Made by a program: the position numbers and the translations under genes. Shown here piece by piece: positions 6,449 to 30,693 of a stretch of DNA of 41,791 nt; within the stretch, counting starts at the first letter, position 1, and each line of letters starts with the position of its first letter. The notes under the pieces are model-generated. The model saw nothing but the letters and a program-made list of their open reading frames with translations, was not told the DNA's origin and did no database searches. Source of the stretch: a virus; IMG/VR virus record IMGVR_UViG_3300048927_000491, positions 1 to 41,791 of that record. One strand, written 5' to 3'.

Positions 6449-6702
6449 GCCCGCCGCGCCTTCCACTCGGTGAAGGCTGCGGCATGCGTCGGACACAGAT
6501 CCTTGTCCGGTGCGGGCGACGTTGTGCACCGATCGCAAATCGGCTCGGAGCAGGTGCCCGAAGAATGCACGGTCCCTTCCACCATCTTCCAGTCGCAGAG
6601 AAGTGTCGCACGCTGGCCGCACCGGCATCGTTGGTGCGCCCGCCGTGGACCGCAGACGATGGCGCGTGTGCCGTTGGGCAAGGTGACGTGCTCGCACGCC
6701 AT
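6445..6702 (-). CDS. Small zinc-binding protein
   Basis: An 85-residue protein with cysteine pairs: CRCGQRATLLCDW, then CSEPICDRC and CPTH. They probably hold one or two zinc ions. The ATG at 6702 overlaps the Cro-like stop. The longer frame adds 14 residues that lie inside the upstream gene. Similar short zinc proteins are common in phage early regions. Function unknown. Confidence 0.6.
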   Translation of the reverse strand: MACEHVTLPNGTRAIVCGPRRAHQRCRCGQRATLLCDWKMVEGTVHSSGTCSEPICDRCTTSPAPDKDLCPTHAAAFTEWKARRA

Positions 6703-7013
6703 CACGCGGCGTCCCTTGCTTGCGTTCCGGCCTGCGGATTGCAAGCGACGGTTGAATCAGTTTCTTCTACTTCGATCGGCACGCCTGAGGCGGGCAGCGT
6801 AGAGGGGTAAAGGTCAGGGCGGAGATGGTGACGGGACACGCCGGTCTCCGCTTCAATGCGAAGGACGTATTCGGCGGGGACCCTCTTGGAGCTTTGCAGC
6901 CACTTCCAGACTGCAGGCTGTCCAACGCCGCAAAGGCGCGCCATCGCGGACTGAGAACCTGCGGTTTCGACAGCCAGCTGAAGGGCCTCGAACGGAGTTA
7001 AGGCATCGGACAT
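6702..7013 (-). CDS. YdaS/Cro-like repressor
   Basis: A 103-residue protein. FEALQLAVETAGSQSAMARLCGVGQPAVWKWL followed by KRVPAEYVLRIEAETGVSRHHLRPDLYP is the YdaS/Cro helix-turn-helix pattern. It is the first gene leftward from the CI/Cro control region and heads the early operon, so it should act as Cro. The ATG lies 10 bp from the palindromic operator. YdaS is sometimes called an antitoxin, but no YdaT partner is present. The acidic/Ala tail looks disordered. Confidence 0.85.
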   Translation of the reverse strand: MSDALTPFEALQLAVETAGSQSAMARLCGVGQPAVWKWLQSSKRVPAEYVLRIEAETGVSRHHLRPDLYPSTLPASGVPIEVEETDSTVACNPQAGTQARDAA

Positions 7014-7022
7014 ACCCGCTTT

Positions 7023-7067
7023 ATAGACATGTCTATTCCTCGCGCAATAGACATTTCAAGCTATGAT
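7023..7067. promoter_or_regulatory. CI/Cro operator and divergent promoter region
   Basis: ATAGACATGTCTAT at 7023-7036 is a perfect 14-bp palindrome. The half-site ATAGACAT recurs at 7047-7054. On the minus strand TTGAAA (7059-7054) is followed by 17-18 bp and an ATAGAC-like -10 inside the palindrome, a likely early promoter. On the plus strand TATGAT (7062-7067) is a candidate -10 for the repressor. Both would be blocked by proteins on these sites. Confidence 0.65.
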
Positions 7068-7097
7068 CCTATTCCAACGGTTATAGGGTCGAGTCCA

Positions 7098-7760
7098 ATG
7101 GGGATGGGCGACCGCATTCGTGATCGGCTTGAGGCACTTACCATGTCTCAGGCGGAGCTTGCCCGTCGTGTCGGGATATCACAGCCAAGCGTAAATCATC
7201 TGATCAAGCGCGGTGCTGCCGGCTCCTCTCACCTCCACAAGATTGCGCGCGCTCTCCAGACCACCCCTGCCTATCTGACCGGTGAGACAGACGATCCGAG
7301 TGAAGGTGCTCTTCCTGCGCCTACGCCCCAGCTGATCGCCGAGCAGCTCGGGATGACGCTTATCCCCGAGATCGACCTGCACTTCGCCCTCGGCGGAGGT
7401 AGCTTCGTCGAAGGGCCGGTGACCACGACGATGGTGCCTTACCGCACCGACTGGCTGAATCGGATCACGCGCGGCCTGCCGGCAGACATTTTCCTGACTC
7501 AGGGCGACGGCGATTCGATGATCCCGACGATCCTCGATGGCGACGATGTGATCGTGAACCGCGCGGAGCGCACCATTACGAGGCAGGATAAAATCTGGGC
7601 GGTCGGCTACGGCGACTTCGTAGCGATCAAGCGCGTCCGCCGCCTTGCCAACGGCACATACCAGCTGATGAGCGACAATCCCGTCGTCACGCCGATCGAG
7701 GCCGTCGAGGACGAACTGCGCGTAATCGGCCGCGTCGTCTGGATCGGGCGGCGCATGTAA
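7098..7760 (+). CDS. CI-like repressor, HTH plus S24 LexA-type domain
   Basis: A 220-residue prophage repressor. The N-terminal helix-turn-helix (MSQAELARRVGISQPSVNHLIKRG) precedes an S24 peptidase-like domain, with the catalytic serine in GDGDSMIPT and the lysine in FVAIKRV. Both residues are kept, so RecA-stimulated autocleavage is possible; a clear Ala-Gly cleavage site is not obvious (ALGGG is the nearest). Starting at 7098 keeps the operator outside the gene. An in-frame ATG at 7029 would put the palindrome within the coding region, and one at 7104 is also possible. It opens a rightward operon with the HIRAN gene (TAATG overlap). Confidence 0.92.
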   Translation: MGMGDRIRDRLEALTMSQAELARRVGISQPSVNHLIKRGAAGSSHLHKIARALQTTPAYLTGETDDPSEGALPAPTPQLIAEQLGMTLIPEIDLHFALGGGSFVEGPVTTTMVPYRTDWLNRITRGLPADIFLTQGDGDSMIPTILDGDDVIVNRAERTITRQDKIWAVGYGDFVAIKRVRRLANGTYQLMSDNPVVTPIEAVEDELRVIGRVVWIGRRM

Positions 7761-8179
7761 TGCCGCCGGCGGCGATGTCTCTCGCGGTGGTAGGCGCCAA
7801 GCACAAGAATGCCGACGGTTCCGATCGCGAGCTGGAGATCGAGGCGTGCGCGCCCGGCGAGCCGGTCGAGTTGGTGCCCGAGCCGGAAAACGAGCACGAT
7901 CCGCATGCCATCGCGGTCTTCTCCGAGCGTGGCGTACAGCTGGGCTACATTTCGGCAGAGCGGGCACCCCGCATCGGGAGCTTCATGGCCGAGCACGACA
8001 TTATCGCGGTGTTCCAGCGCCCGTCCGAGTTCGGTGCCTGGATACGCGCGTCTTTCGATGGCGAGCCGCCGGTGCTGACGCCCGCGATGCTGATCGCAAA
8101 GGACGAGGAGCCGCCAAGCTGGGGCGAGCAGCACGGCGAGCCCGACTTCTATCCGGATGAGATTTGGCCTGACGATTGA
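7760..8179 (+). CDS. HIRAN-domain protein
   Basis: A 139-residue protein whose residues 8-80 form a HIRAN domain: AVVGAKH, ELVPEPENEHDPHAIAVF and GVQLGYIS. HIRAN domains bind 3' ends of single-stranded DNA in HLTF/Rad5-type remodellers. Here the domain stands alone with an acidic C-terminal tail. The start overlaps the repressor's stop, so it should be expressed in the lysogen. A role in sensing damaged DNA or foreign ends is possible but inferred. Confidence 0.85.
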   Translation: MPPAAMSLAVVGAKHKNADGSDRELEIEACAPGEPVELVPEPENEHDPHAIAVFSERGVQLGYISAERAPRIGSFMAEHDIIAVFQRPSEFGAWIRASFDGEPPVLTPAMLIAKDEEPPSWGEQHGEPDFYPDEIWPDD

Positions 8180-8186
8180 CTATGAG

Positions 8187-8918
8187 ATGGGGGGTAAATT
8201 GGGGACGAATTTGAAGGCTGGCGAGCGCGCATGTCCGCGCTGCAAAGAGACCATCAAAGCGGATGCTACAATTTGCAAGCACTGCAAAACTGAATTCTCG
8301 GCCGCAGAGATCGAAGCTGCCAAGGCCGAACAGCGCAAAGCTACAAAGTACGGGGCAATCGGTTGCCTTGGGTTAGTATTCTTGTTGGGGTTGTGCACTT
8401 ACGCTGTCAGCGACAAGACGCCTTCCCCCGCGAAATCTGGCAATCAGGCCGCATCCGATAAGCCCGGGCCGACCGCGAAGGCGGACGCTATTACATTCTA
8501 CCGCAGCGTCATGGCAGCGATCAGTCCGTGTGATGCCGCCGGGCAGACGGTTGCAACTGCCGGGAAGGCCGGCGATCTGGTCGGGATTTATCGTGCTGCA
8601 AGTGCAATGGAGTCGGCCTGTCTCTCAGTTCCCGGAGACATCCGCGCGATCGATGTGCCCGAAAGCGTCGGAGCAGAAGCACGCACGAAGCTGACCCAAA
8701 CTCGGGAAGTCTGCGAAAACGCTTATGTGCAGCGTTGGTCCGCAGCCGGGAAGATGAAGGAGGTTCTTGACGAGAATGGCGCCATCGGCCGGCAGGCCGA
8801 GCTGAAGGACACAATGGAGTTAGTACAAGCCGGAACTCTCGCTTGCGCGACAGGACTCGTTGGGCAGGTCATGAGTTTGGGTGCGACGCAAGCCGATCTT
8901 GCAGGAAAGGGCAAATAG
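8187..8918 (+). CDS. Zinc-ribbon membrane protein
   Basis: About 243 residues. The N-terminal zinc ribbon (CPRCKETIKADATICKHCKTEF) is followed by one membrane helix (YGAIGCLGLVFLLGLCTYAV). A Pro/Lys linker and a roughly 150-residue outer domain with scattered cysteines (SPCDAAGQ, ESACLSV, REVCENAY, TLACATG) come next, probably periplasmic. The start is uncertain: ATG 8187 is used, while 8157 would overlap the HIRAN gene and TTG 8199 has a GGGGG upstream. It looks less GC-rich than structural genes, like the following PhyR gene. Function unknown. Confidence 0.65.
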   Translation: MGGKLGTNLKAGERACPRCKETIKADATICKHCKTEFSAAEIEAAKAEQRKATKYGAIGCLGLVFLLGLCTYAVSDKTPSPAKSGNQAASDKPGPTAKADAITFYRSVMAAISPCDAAGQTVATAGKAGDLVGIYRAASAMESACLSVPGDIRAIDVPESVGAEARTKLTQTREVCENAYVQRWSAAGKMKEVLDENGAIGRQAELKDTMELVQAGTLACATGLVGQVMSLGATQADLAGKGK

Positions 8919-8942
8919 CTGTGCCTAATGCGGGGTACTCCG

Positions 8943-10625
8943 ATGTCCGTAGCTGACCAGATATCATTACAGCTGCCATATCTCCGGAGGTTTGCTCGAA
9001 CTCTGCGGGGGACGCAATCAGCGGGCGACGCGTTGGTTCGAGCATTGCTAGAAACCGCGCTTGCCGACCAGATCTTGCGCGCAGAAATAGCTGAAGATCG
9101 AGCCTTATTGTATAAAAATCTGCTGCGCAAAGATATCGAGATGCCAGCTAATCTTGATGTCGCACCTGGGGATAATAGCTTAGATCGAAGCCGGATCGCT
9201 CTGTTGCTCACAACAGTTGAGGAGTTTAGCGGGGAAGAGGCAGCGTTAATTCTTGGTGTCGATGAAGAGGAGGTTGAGCGGTTAGTCGCACGGAGCATTG
9301 CCGAGATCGAAAATAGATCGCGAACAAGTGTTTTGATTATCGAAGATGAGCCGCTTATTTCTATGCAGCTTGATGGCATTGTTTCCGAACTTGGCCATAA
9401 AGTTATCGGAATTGCTGCCACACGTGACCAAGCAGTTTCGATGGCATCAAATGAGCTGCCAGGGCTTGTCATTGCTGACATCGCGTTAGCGGACGGCAGC
9501 TCGGGGATCGATGCGGTCAAAGATATCCTAAGCGTAGGCAACGTACCAATTATATTCGTGACCGCTTATCCCGAACGATTACTAACCGAAGAACGTCCGG
9601 AACCTACCTACCTTGTCACCAAGCCTTTCCAAGAGTTCACAGTCCGGAACGCAATATCCCAAGCATTATTTGCTCGTACTCTCTCGGCTGAGGAACATGA
9701 CCGAGAAAGCGAGATTTCTGATAAAGATAATGACGATTATACATCGCTGGAAGCTGCTCGCAGCTCGCGCTCTGCGATCGCGATACGGGAGCTTGCGAGC
9801 GCTAATCTGCGTGCTGCTCCAGGACCTCTCGATGCTGATGTTGTCGGCGGACGCTTAACGCTATCCCAATCTGAGCAAGGAAGAGCGACAACTTCACTGG
9901 CCAATTTGGAGGTGTTGAGGGAGCTACATGCCGAGACAGCTGATCAACTCCTATCGGATACACTTTCTAATAGTGCGCCACCGGGCGTAAGAAGACGAGT
10001 TGCGACGATACGCCGGGCGTTGACACATCCATTTAGCGATGCGTCAGGAACCTCAATAGGTGTGCAGGCCATCGGCCTAAGGAAGGTTGTCGAGGCATCA
10101 CGGGAAATGCTGCTCGAAGAGCAAATCGGAGATTTGTTCATATTTGCAGATGACCTGCATGATCTGGCTTGGAGATTTCCGAGTTTTCAAGATTTCAGGG
10201 CAGGTGCCGAAGAAGTCTCTACCCTCACAGATGAAGGTAGAAGCGCGTTAATTCAGGCGTCTAAGGTTATCGAAGAAGCGCCGGATACATCGGTTGACCC
10301 CGCGATTAAGCAAGAACTTTCCGCAATCAGGGAGGATGCTGAAGAGCAGAGAGACAGCTTGGCGGATTTAGCGTTAATACGTTCACTGGGTAATATCTGG
10401 CGCAGCATAGGACGCGTAATACAAGCGCGGGTCGATGGCGTTAAATCGCAGGCAATTAAAACGTTTGATGAAGATCTCGGAAAGACCCTTGGTCAAATTC
10501 CATCTTATCTTCTTAAAGGCGGGGCACTATTGACCGCCGCTCATTACGTCCCTGGAGAACTGGGAGTTGCAATAGCGGTAGCAGGTGCTTGGACGGCGCT
10601 TACCAAAAAGGATAAAGATGACTGA
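8943..10625 (+). CDS. phyR: PhyR-like anti-anti-sigma response regulator with long C-terminal extension
   Basis: A 560-residue protein. Residues 1-125 form the sigma-like domain of PhyR (LQLPYLRRFARTLRGTQSAG; LLLTTVEEFSGEEAALILGV). Residues 128-245 form the receiver (VLIIEDEPLISMQL; LVIADIALADGSSGIDAV; VTAYPERLLT; LVTKPF), with acid pocket, phospho-acceptor Asp (about 179), Thr and Lys all kept. PhyR normally ends near 265-270; here about 300 residues follow, helical, unrecognised, with a hydrophobic segment near the end (YLLKGGALLTAAHYVPGELGVAIAVAGAW). Phosphorylated PhyR sequesters NepR and frees the general-stress sigma factor EcfG. The start at 8943 matches the family N-terminus. The gene ends 6 bp from the converging D gene. 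Cargo of the lysogeny operon. Confidence 0.88.
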   Translation: MSVADQISLQLPYLRRFARTLRGTQSAGDALVRALLETALADQILRAEIAEDRALLYKNLLRKDIEMPANLDVAPGDNSLDRSRIALLLTTVEEFSGEEAALILGVDEEEVERLVARSIAEIENRSRTSVLIIEDEPLISMQLDGIVSELGHKVIGIAATRDQAVSMASNELPGLVIADIALADGSSGIDAVKDILSVGNVPIIFVTAYPERLLTEERPEPTYLVTKPFQEFTVRNAISQALFARTLSAEEHDRESEISDKDNDDYTSLEAARSSRSAIAIRELASANLRAAPGPLDADVVGGRLTLSQSEQGRATTSLANLEVLRELHAETADQLLSDTLSNSAPPGVRRRVATIRRALTHPFSDASGTSIGVQAIGLRKVVEASREMLLEEQIGDLFIFADDLHDLAWRFPSFQDFRAGAEEVSTLTDEGRSALIQASKVIEEAPDTSVDPAIKQELSAIREDAEEQRDSLADLALIRSLGNIWRSIGRVIQARVDGVKSQAIKTFDEDLGKTLGQIPSYLLKGGALLTAAHYVPGELGVAIAVAGAWTALTKKDKDD

Positions 10626-10631
10626 AGGGGA

Positions 10632-11645
10632 TCATGTATGCCCGAGTTCCATTTTTATCTCTGTGCTGAACCCCCCGGCTTTATCTAGCCGGTGGGTCAC
10701 TTCCGACACTAACCAAGTGGTTGCGTCAATCACGTCCTTAAAACCGATCACCTTCGCGCGCGCCTCGGGGATGAGATCAGCGCGGCCGAGTGCCAGCTTC
10801 ATGTCGAAGGTGGCGGGTGCCCGCTTGAGCCGATCACGCTCCGCGGTGGCGGCGCGCTCAGCTGAGGCTTTGTCCTGGTGGACCTTGCGCAGCCTCTTCG
10901 CGCCGGCCGCGTTGCCGACTGTCACCGTCTGCTTCTTCGCCGCCTTCTTGTCGTGCCAGGTGGCGGTGACGCCCTCCTGACCATCGCGCTTCTGACGCTG
11001 CCAATTGTGGCCGTCGCCATCTCGGCGACGGATCGTCAGGCTCGGCATCGGCTCGCCGGTGCTGGTCTGGCCCGCACCCTTTGGCGCGAACACCAGGTGC
11101 TTGTCCTTGATGGTGGCGACGGCGTCGTTTTCGCGTCCCAGGCGGCGTAGGAAGGCGATGTCGCTTTCCCGGCTCTGGCTGATCGTTGGCAGGGGGATCG
11201 AGGCCTTGGCGGGCGCGATGCGAGCCGTGAGGCCATTGCGGCCGGCGACTTCGTTCAAGACGGCGCCGAGTGTGGTATTCTTCCAGCTTTGCGATCGGCG
11301 GTTGCGGATCTCGCTGGTGAAGTCGGCTGCGCGAGCGCGGATGGTGATCTGATCGGGCGGGCCGCTGTGCGAGACATCGTCGACCTTGAAGCTGCCCTTG
11401 TCGATCAGGCCCACGGTGACATCGCGGCCCTGCAGCCAGCCCAGTTGAACATGCAGCACCGCGCCCTCGCGCGGGATGGCGACGATGCCCTTGCTGTCGT
11501 CGAGCACGATATCCAGCTGGTCGGCTTCGTCGCCGCGCTTCTCCGAGATCGAGAGTGAGATCAGGAGCGGGCGGAGGCGGTCGGTCAAGTCTTGGCCATC
11601 AAGGGTGACGCGCCAGTTGGGGACGTTGCTGATCGCCTCGCTCAT
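10632..11645 (-). CDS. D: Tail protein gpD (baseplate hub)
   Basis: A 337-residue homologue of P2 gpD, the trimeric hub that sits between tail tube and spike. Family features include NWRVTLDGQDLTDRLRPLLISLSI, ADQLDIVLDD, VQLGW, SFKVDDVSHSGPPDQITIRARAADF and the late GVTATWHD segment. P2 gpD is about 387 residues, so this is slightly short. It is the last gene of the V-to-D operon and is coupled to U (ATGA overlap). Confidence 0.93.
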   Translation of the reverse strand: MSEAISNVPNWRVTLDGQDLTDRLRPLLISLSISEKRGDEADQLDIVLDDSKGIVAIPREGAVLHVQLGWLQGRDVTVGLIDKGSFKVDDVSHSGPPDQITIRARAADFTSEIRNRRSQSWKNTTLGAVLNEVAGRNGLTARIAPAKASIPLPTISQSRESDIAFLRRLGRENDAVATIKDKHLVFAPKGAGQTSTGEPMPSLTIRRRDGDGHNWQRQKRDGQEGVTATWHDKKAAKKQTVTVGNAAGAKRLRKVHQDKASAERAATAERDRLKRAPATFDMKLALGRADLIPEARAKVIGFKDVIDATTWLVSEVTHRLDKAGGFSTEIKMELGHT

Positions 11646-29339: not shown

Positions 29340-29672
29340 TCAATCCTTGCCGGGCAGGAAGCGGTTGGCGAAGCGATCGGGAAGGCTCACCAGGATGTCG
29401 GTCGCGGACTTGGCGAGCAGCGGCGTGGCGTCGAAGGCGAGCAGGGCGATGGCGAACGCGATCGATTGCGCAACGAAGCCGTTCCAGTCTGTCAGCGCGA
29501 TGATGGCCAGCGTGGCGTAGTAGCTGACCGTCGAGCCGACGATCCATTGCAGGAAGCGCTGGCGCCAGGTCAGGCCGGTCTTCCAGGCTTGGGCGACGGC
29601 CGAGCCGATCAGAGACGGGGCAAGGGAGCCGAGCAGCTCGGCCACGGATTCGAGAAAGTGGCGCGGGTCCAT
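29340..29672 (-). CDS. Holin-like membrane protein
   Basis: 110 residues with two or three membrane segments (FLQWIVGSTVSYYATLAIIAL; FVAQSIAFAIALLAFDATPLLA). It is directly upstream of, and nearly touching, the endolysin gene, and downstream of X, matching the holin position in P2 (gene Y). Sequence identity to a known holin class is not apparent, so the name rests on topology and position. Confidence 0.7.
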   Translation of the reverse strand: MDPRHFLESVAELLGSLAPSLIGSAVAQAWKTGLTWRQRFLQWIVGSTVSYYATLAIIALTDWNGFVAQSIAFAIALLAFDATPLLAKSATDILVSLPDRFANRFLPGKD

Positions 29673-29675
29673 AGG

Positions 29676-29900
29676 TCAGCTCCAAAGTTGGACGAGGGGC
29701 AGCACGCGCGCGGTGCTGGTTTCGGTCGATGCGGGCACGACGACGACGGTGCCGAGCGGGAGGATGGTGCCGACGTCGGCCAAGCCGGGGTTCGCCTCGA
29801 GCACGCGCGTGAGGTCGTTCGGGCCGAGCCCGGCCTCGCGCCACAGCAGCTGGTCGAGCTTGTCGCCGGCCTTGGCCGTGAGGCGCTGTTCCGCCGGCAT
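29676..29900 (-). CDS. X: Tail protein gpX (LysM-like)
   Basis: A 74-residue P2 gpX homologue (P2 67). TAKAGDKLDQLLWREAGLG and VLEANPGLADVGTILPLGTVVVVP form the short LysM-like fold. P2 X is essential for tail assembly. It overlaps the L stop by one base and lies just before the holin gene, as in P2. Confidence 0.93.
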   Translation of the reverse strand: MPAEQRLTAKAGDKLDQLLWREAGLGPNDLTRVLEANPGLADVGTILPLGTVVVVPASTETSTARVLPLVQLWS

Positions 29901-30385
29901 CAGATGAGGTCGACCGTGGTGCGCGACTTGCCCAGCATGTCCCGGATGGCGTGAAGAGCATCGCGGCGCAGCTCGCCGATCGACGGGGTGAGATCGTCGG
30001 CCTGGGCGTTGCCGGCGCCGGTCATATCGAAGTCGCGGTGGCGCTCGATCAGCTCGGCCTTGGCGTAGAGGGCGATGGCACGCTGGTAGCGGATGCCGAG
30101 GACGCTTTCGCCGTCCAGCTGCGGCGCGGGCACGGTTGCAAGCGTCGTGTAACCGGCGGCGATCGACGCGGCGGCGAAGGCGCGCAGGTCGATCTCGGCG
30201 GTCATGATCGCGCCGAGGATGGCGGCGCGGAGCCGCGGCGCCGTGATGTTCGTGGGAACGCGTGCCGCCTCGCGCACAGCTGCAGGCTCGATGTCAGGGA
30301 AGAAGCCATCGTTGACGATGGTCGCTTCGCTCGCTGGCGGCTCCTGAGGTGCAGTCTTCGGGGGCAGCGGGACGAAGCTACTCAT
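29900..30385 (-). CDS. L: Head completion protein gpL
   Basis: A 161-residue P2 gpL homologue (P2 169): NDGFFPDIEPAAVREAARV and YTTLATVPA...YQRAIALYAKAELIERHRDFDMT are conserved. It stabilises filled heads and forms the connector to the tail. The start overlaps the upstream membrane protein's stop (ATGA). Confidence 0.93.
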   Translation of the reverse strand: MSSFVPLPPKTAPQEPPASEATIVNDGFFPDIEPAAVREAARVPTNITAPRLRAAILGAIMTAEIDLRAFAAASIAAGYTTLATVPAPQLDGESVLGIRYQRAIALYAKAELIERHRDFDMTGAGNAQADDLTPSIGELRRDALHAIRDMLGKSRTTVDLI

Positions 30386-30693
30386 GCGACGATCAGACGG
30401 GCGAGCAGCTGCATGCAGGCGATGCAGCCACCGAAAGCGGGCACGGCAAGGATCAGGCAGACGATCTGCGCCCGGCGTTCGGTCCGCTCCGTTATGGCAA
30501 CGCCGAGCAAGCTGCAGACGAGTATCGCCGCGAAGGCGAGCGTGGCGAAAGCCAACAGCAACGTCTTGAAGATGAGCCAGGGCATGAGAAGGGCAGCGGT
30601 CGCGGCGTTGCTGTCGGGCGAGAACGCGGCGAGGAGCGCAGACGTGAGGAGGGCGATACAGACAAGATTGAGGATGCCACGGATCATGAGCAT
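30382..30693 (-). CDS. Three-helix membrane protein inserted between M and L
   Basis: 103 residues with three hydrophobic segments (ILNLVCIALLTSALLAAF; MPWLIFKTLLLAFATLAFAAILVCSLLG; IVCLILAVPAFGGCIACM). It is not part of the P2 gene order, where L follows M directly. It could be an antiholin, second holin or superinfection-exclusion factor. Starts at M1 (30693) or M3. The 117 bp between it and M hold no gene. Confidence 0.6.
   Translation of the reverse strand: MLMIRGILNLVCIALLTSALLAAFSPDSNAATAALLMPWLIFKTLLLAFATLAFAAILVCSLLGVAITERTERRAQIVCLILAVPAFGGCIACMQLLARLIVA

Follow-up and report, generated by a model that had tools for sequence, protein, structure and literature searches.

Alphaproteobacteria control their general stress response through a central switch, the protein PhyR, and we found that a diverged form of it is encoded by a phage. 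The stretch of DNA analyzed, referred to here as the window, is the IMG/VR virus record IMGVR_UViG_3300048927_000491 of 41,791 bases. It contains a gene that encodes a PhyR core fused to a long C-terminal extension, located at a site that holds defense genes in several related phages. Our favored explanation, which we give a probability of about 0.4, is that this is a moron (lysogenic-conversion) gene in a P2-like phage of Novosphingobium-type hosts, in which a stress-phosphorylated PhyR switch drives an effector located in the extension. We favor such an effector switch over a regulator of EcfG because the receiver domain keeps all of its phospho-signaling residues and the sigma-like domain is eroded.

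The frame between positions 8928 and 10625 is open for 565 codons and is an intact sequence encoding a single protein. The start codon at 8943 (MSVADQIS..., 560 aa) aligns with the starts of other PhyRs, and the coordinates given by an initial annotation of this DNA, made from the sequence alone, therefore fit. That annotation also predicted a PhyR core comprised of a sigma-like part and a receiver, and this is borne out by several searches. The protein scores 285.5 bits against the NCBIfam model of the PhyR anti-anti-sigma subfamily (NF006623, cut-off 240) and exceeds the cut-offs of the Pfam families PhyR_sigma2, PhyR_sigma-like, and Response_reg (PF22029, PF22233, and PF00072). Its closest solved structures are PDB 3n0r (6e-62) and 4g97, both at approximately 1e-61, and it is 55-65% identical to sphingomonad PhyRs. 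An AlphaFold2 prediction for which 30 chromosomal PhyRs were supplied placed the core in the closed PhyR fold with a predicted local distance difference test score (pLDDT) mostly between 80 and 96. Comparison of the predicted fold with known structures using Foldseek and VIA-align returned PhyR structures at the top, the VIA-align comparison giving Z scores of 20-22 and covering mainly residues 123-260. Thus, residues 1-250 are a genuine PhyR core, with sigma2 and sigma4 followed by the receiver in the same order as in known PhyRs (3n0r, 4g97, 9by5; NF006623), the same phospho-signaling residues, and the same predicted closed fold. It differs from these proteins in being borne by a phage, in its 310-residue extension, and in a deletion between sigma2 and sigma4. 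By descent the protein is a PhyR variant, and it may or may not be a PhyR by function.

The two domains of the core have been conserved unequally. We counted near-invariant positions, defined against 80 sphingomonad PhyRs, and found that the receiver keeps 73 of 80. This domain has the full set of key residues claimed for it initially: the acidic pair E134/D135, D179, T207, and K227. By contrast, 29 of 40 such positions remain in the sigma-like domain, and the 11 that are lost include those of W66, P81, and Q85. Approximately 20 residues are also deleted between sigma2 and sigma4, comprising the linker and the stretch HExAAQxRLxxITP (consensus) that precedes sigma4. The conserved sigma-like surface of PhyR, which includes this sigma2-sigma4 stretch (the alpha4 region), is consequently incomplete. 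A recent paper likens the flexible alpha4 helix of the PhyR sigma-like domain to a 'molecular doorstop' for the binding of NepR (PMC12148442). By our own mapping, taken from the alignment and not from coordinates, alpha4 would lie in the deleted stretch. Both the sigma-like domain and the receiver still fold as PhyR in the AlphaFold2 model.

This pattern bears on two alternatives. The protein could be a working phage anti-anti-sigma factor that, either when phosphorylated or constitutively, binds NepR and releases EcfG so that the stress response of the lysogen is raised, with the extension localizing or tuning this activity. The best-conserved part is a full receiver, the predicted structure still contains the helices of sigma2 and sigma4, and the score exceeds the cut-off of the anti-anti-sigma subfamily, all of which agree with such a role. 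On the other hand, the sigma2-sigma4 stretch and the 11 near-invariant residues are lost and alpha4 has a role in NepR binding; these losses do not in themselves exclude binding, and we consider this explanation unlikely. Neither a NepR nor an EcfG gene was seen next to the fusion gene. The initial annotation had proposed as alternatives that the phage may set host stress through NepR and EcfG or that the PhyR switch controls an effector in the extension; the second proposal fits better, and the losses in the sigma-like domain leave the first less supported. Alternatively, the protein could be a phosphate or kinase decoy. Its receiver would compete with host PhyR for the kinases or phosphotransferase, and its sigma-like domain, being eroded, would be unable to bind NepR, with the result that the stress response of the lysogen is dampened. 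An intact receiver beside a degraded NepR-facing domain is what a decoy would have, and most Sphingomonadales genomes examined contain a single copy of PhyR, making competition plausible. However, a decoy leaves the 310-residue extension and its fusion to the core unexplained, and we regard this explanation as quite unlikely.

The extension is what sets the protein apart from chromosomal PhyRs. All 80 of the chromosomal PhyRs fetched end approximately 15 residues past the receiver (within about 15 of SQALFF), near residue 265, in keeping with the earlier statement that usual PhyRs stop near residue 270, whereas the window protein continues for 310 residues. We also fetched eight unusually long open frames as candidates for other long PhyRs. 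Seven of these owe their length to a frame open upstream and terminate where PhyRs normally do; the remaining one (L251) is broken by a frameshift. The extension is coding: its frame is open across 310 codons, none of 20,000 shuffled sequences remained open, and its GC content by codon position (0.63/0.46/0.43) resembles that of the core. No relatives of the extension were found in the Pfam, PHROGs, PADLOC, or NCBIfam profile libraries, in viral and genome contigs scanned with degenerate peptides, or among approximately 980 bacterial genomes (398 Sphingomonadales, 385 Alphaproteobacteria, and 196 Novosphingobium); neither these scans nor the tblastn search that follows had an independent positive control, and distant relatives may therefore exist. 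A tblastn search of phages and plasmids to an E value of 10 gave only partial matches to Streptomyces BTAD sequences at 0.7. Thus, the extension is as novel as had been supposed within the libraries and genomes searched. Weak matches in contigs L109 and L111-L114 were rejected as fragments of unrelated or out-of-frame sequence. Another idea that did not hold was that the extension contains a self-inhibiting helix resembling NepR, as SFQD near residue 417 had suggested; this scored below shuffled sequences with a NepR model.

When folded alone the extension was predicted to be mostly helical with a pLDDT of 40, and at this confidence we make no claim about its fold. In the AlphaFold2 model that included the chromosomal PhyRs, its best-predicted part is a hydrophobic hairpin near the C-terminus with helices at residues 521-534 and 539-554. 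The initial annotation had the extension ending in a hydrophobic segment. A hairpin is predicted there, but the segment is weak, with a best 19-residue hydropathy of 1.39 that is under the usual transmembrane level. The model thus suggests a short helical hairpin and not a clear transmembrane helix.

The base composition of the fusion gene marks it as a foreign insert. Its GC content is 50% compared to 64% for the phage, and GC content at third codon positions is 0.43-0.47 in the core and extension alike compared to approximately 0.61-0.90 in most phage genes. Because the two parts are alike in composition, the fusion probably predates the arrival of the gene in the phage. We found no PhyR in 50,697 phage records and none besides the window record in 2.9 million viral contigs, which were searched with three queries as well as a DNA signature for TA[FY]PERLLT. 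The open-licence literature also yielded no report of a phage PhyR. A further alternative is that the gene is a hitch-hiking host gene that is decaying with no benefit to the phage, or an assembly chimera. That only a single record carries it is consistent with this, as is the tree of PhyRs, in which the core lies on the Novosphingobium side on a branch of 3.07 compared to a median of 0.24, a length that makes its exact placement unsure. However, 560 codons are open, all of the receiver residues are kept, and composition is uniform across the core and extension. The gene is also flanked by phage genes at exact gene boundaries, supporting its carriage by a phage as first claimed, and the same neighbors adjoin each other in a sister phage (L191). 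Based on this, decay or chimerism is very unlikely.

The fusion gene lies in a slot whose content varies among sister phages, which we identified in IMG/VR through the tail sheath and gene D. The tail sheath is 54-55% identical to those of Peduovirus-type phages and 58-99% identical to those of the IMG/VR sisters. Many of these sisters have conserved Cro, repressor, and HIRAN genes followed by variable content up to gene D. In L191, the zinc-ribbon gene (56% identity) directly adjoins gene D, making this an empty site, and in L096 HIRAN and gene D are direct neighbors. By contrast, in L230 a relative of the zinc-ribbon gene is separated from gene D by a complete Septu pair (PtuA at 5e-151 and PtuB at 6e-68). 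Scanning chosen cargo proteins from 21 sister contigs with PADLOC gave matches below 1e-5 in 11 contigs, a proportion that is not an unbiased rate because long open reading frames (ORFs) were picked. Other slots contained the Lamassu pair LmuA and LmuB (L093), PtuA (L211), a type IV restriction HNH protein (L099), a D12 methylase with a DndB/DpdB-like protein (L107), a methylase with an NsnA-like protein (L168) or a weakly matching restriction endonuclease (L196), a KAP NTPase (PDC-S20; L171), PDC-M41A (L083), or a methylase alone (L095 and L195). There was also non-defense cargo, including glycosyltransferases (L237 and L194), Bro-N (L091), and P22_AR (L169). The slot is therefore a lysogenic-conversion and defense hotspot of P2-like sphingomonad phages, which the initial annotation had missed. 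A survey of the slot through HIRAN neighbors in bacterial genomes was abandoned since gene D was nearby in only 1 of 20 regions. P2-like phages that infect other hosts are known to have hotspots for antiviral systems, one of which, in a P2-related case, is beside cI (PMC9122126). These are likewise small variable loci between conserved genes; the slot described here differs in being in Sphingomonadales and in being flanked by a repressor-HIRAN operon on one side and gene D on the other.

The position of the gene in the repressor operon was correctly recognized at the outset. The repressor, HIRAN, zinc-ribbon, and fusion genes are on one strand (7029-10625) and overlap or are at most 24 bp apart, and the stop codon of gene D is 6 bp beyond that of the fusion gene. 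A location directly downstream in this operon could mean that the protein is a phage-internal regulator coupling host stress to prophage induction via the adjacent repressor, but sister phages have the same repressor-HIRAN pair with no PhyR gene and the composition marks a recent foreign insert. We judge this the least likely of the explanations considered. Two of the operon genes recur elsewhere. The HIRAN protein is conserved beside a CI-like repressor in sister phages, and the same holds for 24 of 398 Sphingomonadales genomes; the zinc-ribbon protein with a hydrophobic segment is a recurrent operon partner with relatives in L191, L224, L230, L173, and L184.

According to the effector-switch explanation, the lysogen would express the gene as part of the repressor operon and D179 would be phosphorylated by histidine kinases of the host general stress response. 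The sigma-like domain and receiver would then open, and the extension would be freed or activated. The extension would be an effector, probably near a membrane by means of the hydrophobic hairpin, that stops or excludes competing phages or arrests a damaged cell. The PhyR part would serve as sensor and safety catch and not mainly as a NepR trap. Several observations weigh against this explanation. No dedicated kinase was found with Pfam among the operon genes tested, and a promoter scan gave nothing above chance, with expression in the lysogen deduced from gene order. The extension has no catalytic signature, relatives, or reliable model. No catalogued anti-phage defense family matched, PADLOC giving none at E values up to 1 for either the full protein or the extension. 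Additionally, since the slot also has non-defense cargo, location alone is no proof of defense.

Mobile elements provide a precedent for a PhyR-type receiver being fused to a further domain. A protein from Agrobacterium pusense plasmid pAt2 (P0001; L250:2392-3456 = 29562-30626) has a TIR domain, SpbK-like according to PADLOC, and after it a PhyR-type receiver. A relative on plasmid pAtCFBP5499c of A. tumefaciens (L259:2492-3535) is 42% identical and annotated only as a response regulator. Unlike the window protein, these have a recognized partner domain, the TIR, at the N-terminus and no sigma-like domain. A parallel in how the protein may work is provided by the Detocs systems, in which phosphotransfer switches a receiver domain that is joined to a toxic effector. 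Detocs systems rely on ATP nucleosidases (PMC9966839). They have their own sensor kinase and nucleosidase effector, whereas no kinase is encoded here and no match to a known effector was obtained for the extension, as judged from Pfam for the operon and from Pfam, PADLOC, and NCBIfam for the extension. We tentatively raise the further idea, somewhat unlikely as it stands, that the protein represents a new type of immune or exclusion protein, encoded by a single gene and carried by phages, in which a captured PhyR senses for a novel helical effector and host stress arms the defense of the prophage.

Table 1. Features of the fusion gene, its operon, and the cargo slot.
Feature	Positions	Strand	Basis or remark
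Cro-like gene, divergent, marks the immunity switch region	6702..7013	-	conserved opposite the repressor in relatives
CI/LexA-like repressor (HTH_3 and Peptidase_S24), first operon gene	7029..7760	+	Pfam
HIRAN-domain protein, kept beside the repressor in sister phages	7760..8179	+	Pfam; sister comparison
Zinc-ribbon protein with hydrophobic segment, present in sister phages with no PhyR	8157..8918	+	sister comparison
Cargo slot, bounded by the stop codons of the zinc-ribbon gene and gene D	8919..10631	.	no cargo in L191, Septu pair in L230
PhyR-extension fusion gene, 560 aa	8943..10625	+	alternative in-frame ATG at 8928
PhyR sigma-like domain, residues 1-126, diverged	8943..9320	+	PF22029, PF22233; alignment and counts
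PhyR receiver domain, residues 127-250, phospho-acceptor D179	9321..9692	+	PF00072; alignment
Orphan, mainly helical C-terminal extension, approximately residues 251-560, candidate effector domain	9693..10622	+	no relatives; coding signal; low-confidence helical model
Predicted hydrophobic helical hairpin near the C-terminus, residues 521-554	10503..10604	+	pLDDT 75-83; hydropathy 1.39
Phage gene D (tail/baseplate hub), convergent with the fusion gene, right edge of the cargo slot	10632..11645	-	PF05954

Two other regions of the window drew our attention. The ORF at 1191-2621 encodes a PAPS-reductase family protein (phrog_12882 at 8e-157) and adjoins a DNA methylase (445-1194) and a PcfJ-like ORF; this neighborhood is possibly a DNA-modification or sulfur-related module. 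A low-GC gene (53.5%) among the tail genes at 17837-19111 matches phrog_6841 only and is possibly a second cargo gene.

If the PhyR switch drives an effector, the stress kinases of the host would be tied to competition between phages and the fusion would be a compact new defense module. If the protein still binds NepR, the phage would have a handle on the whole stress programme of its host. The slot itself is a place to look for further defense genes of Sphingomonadales.
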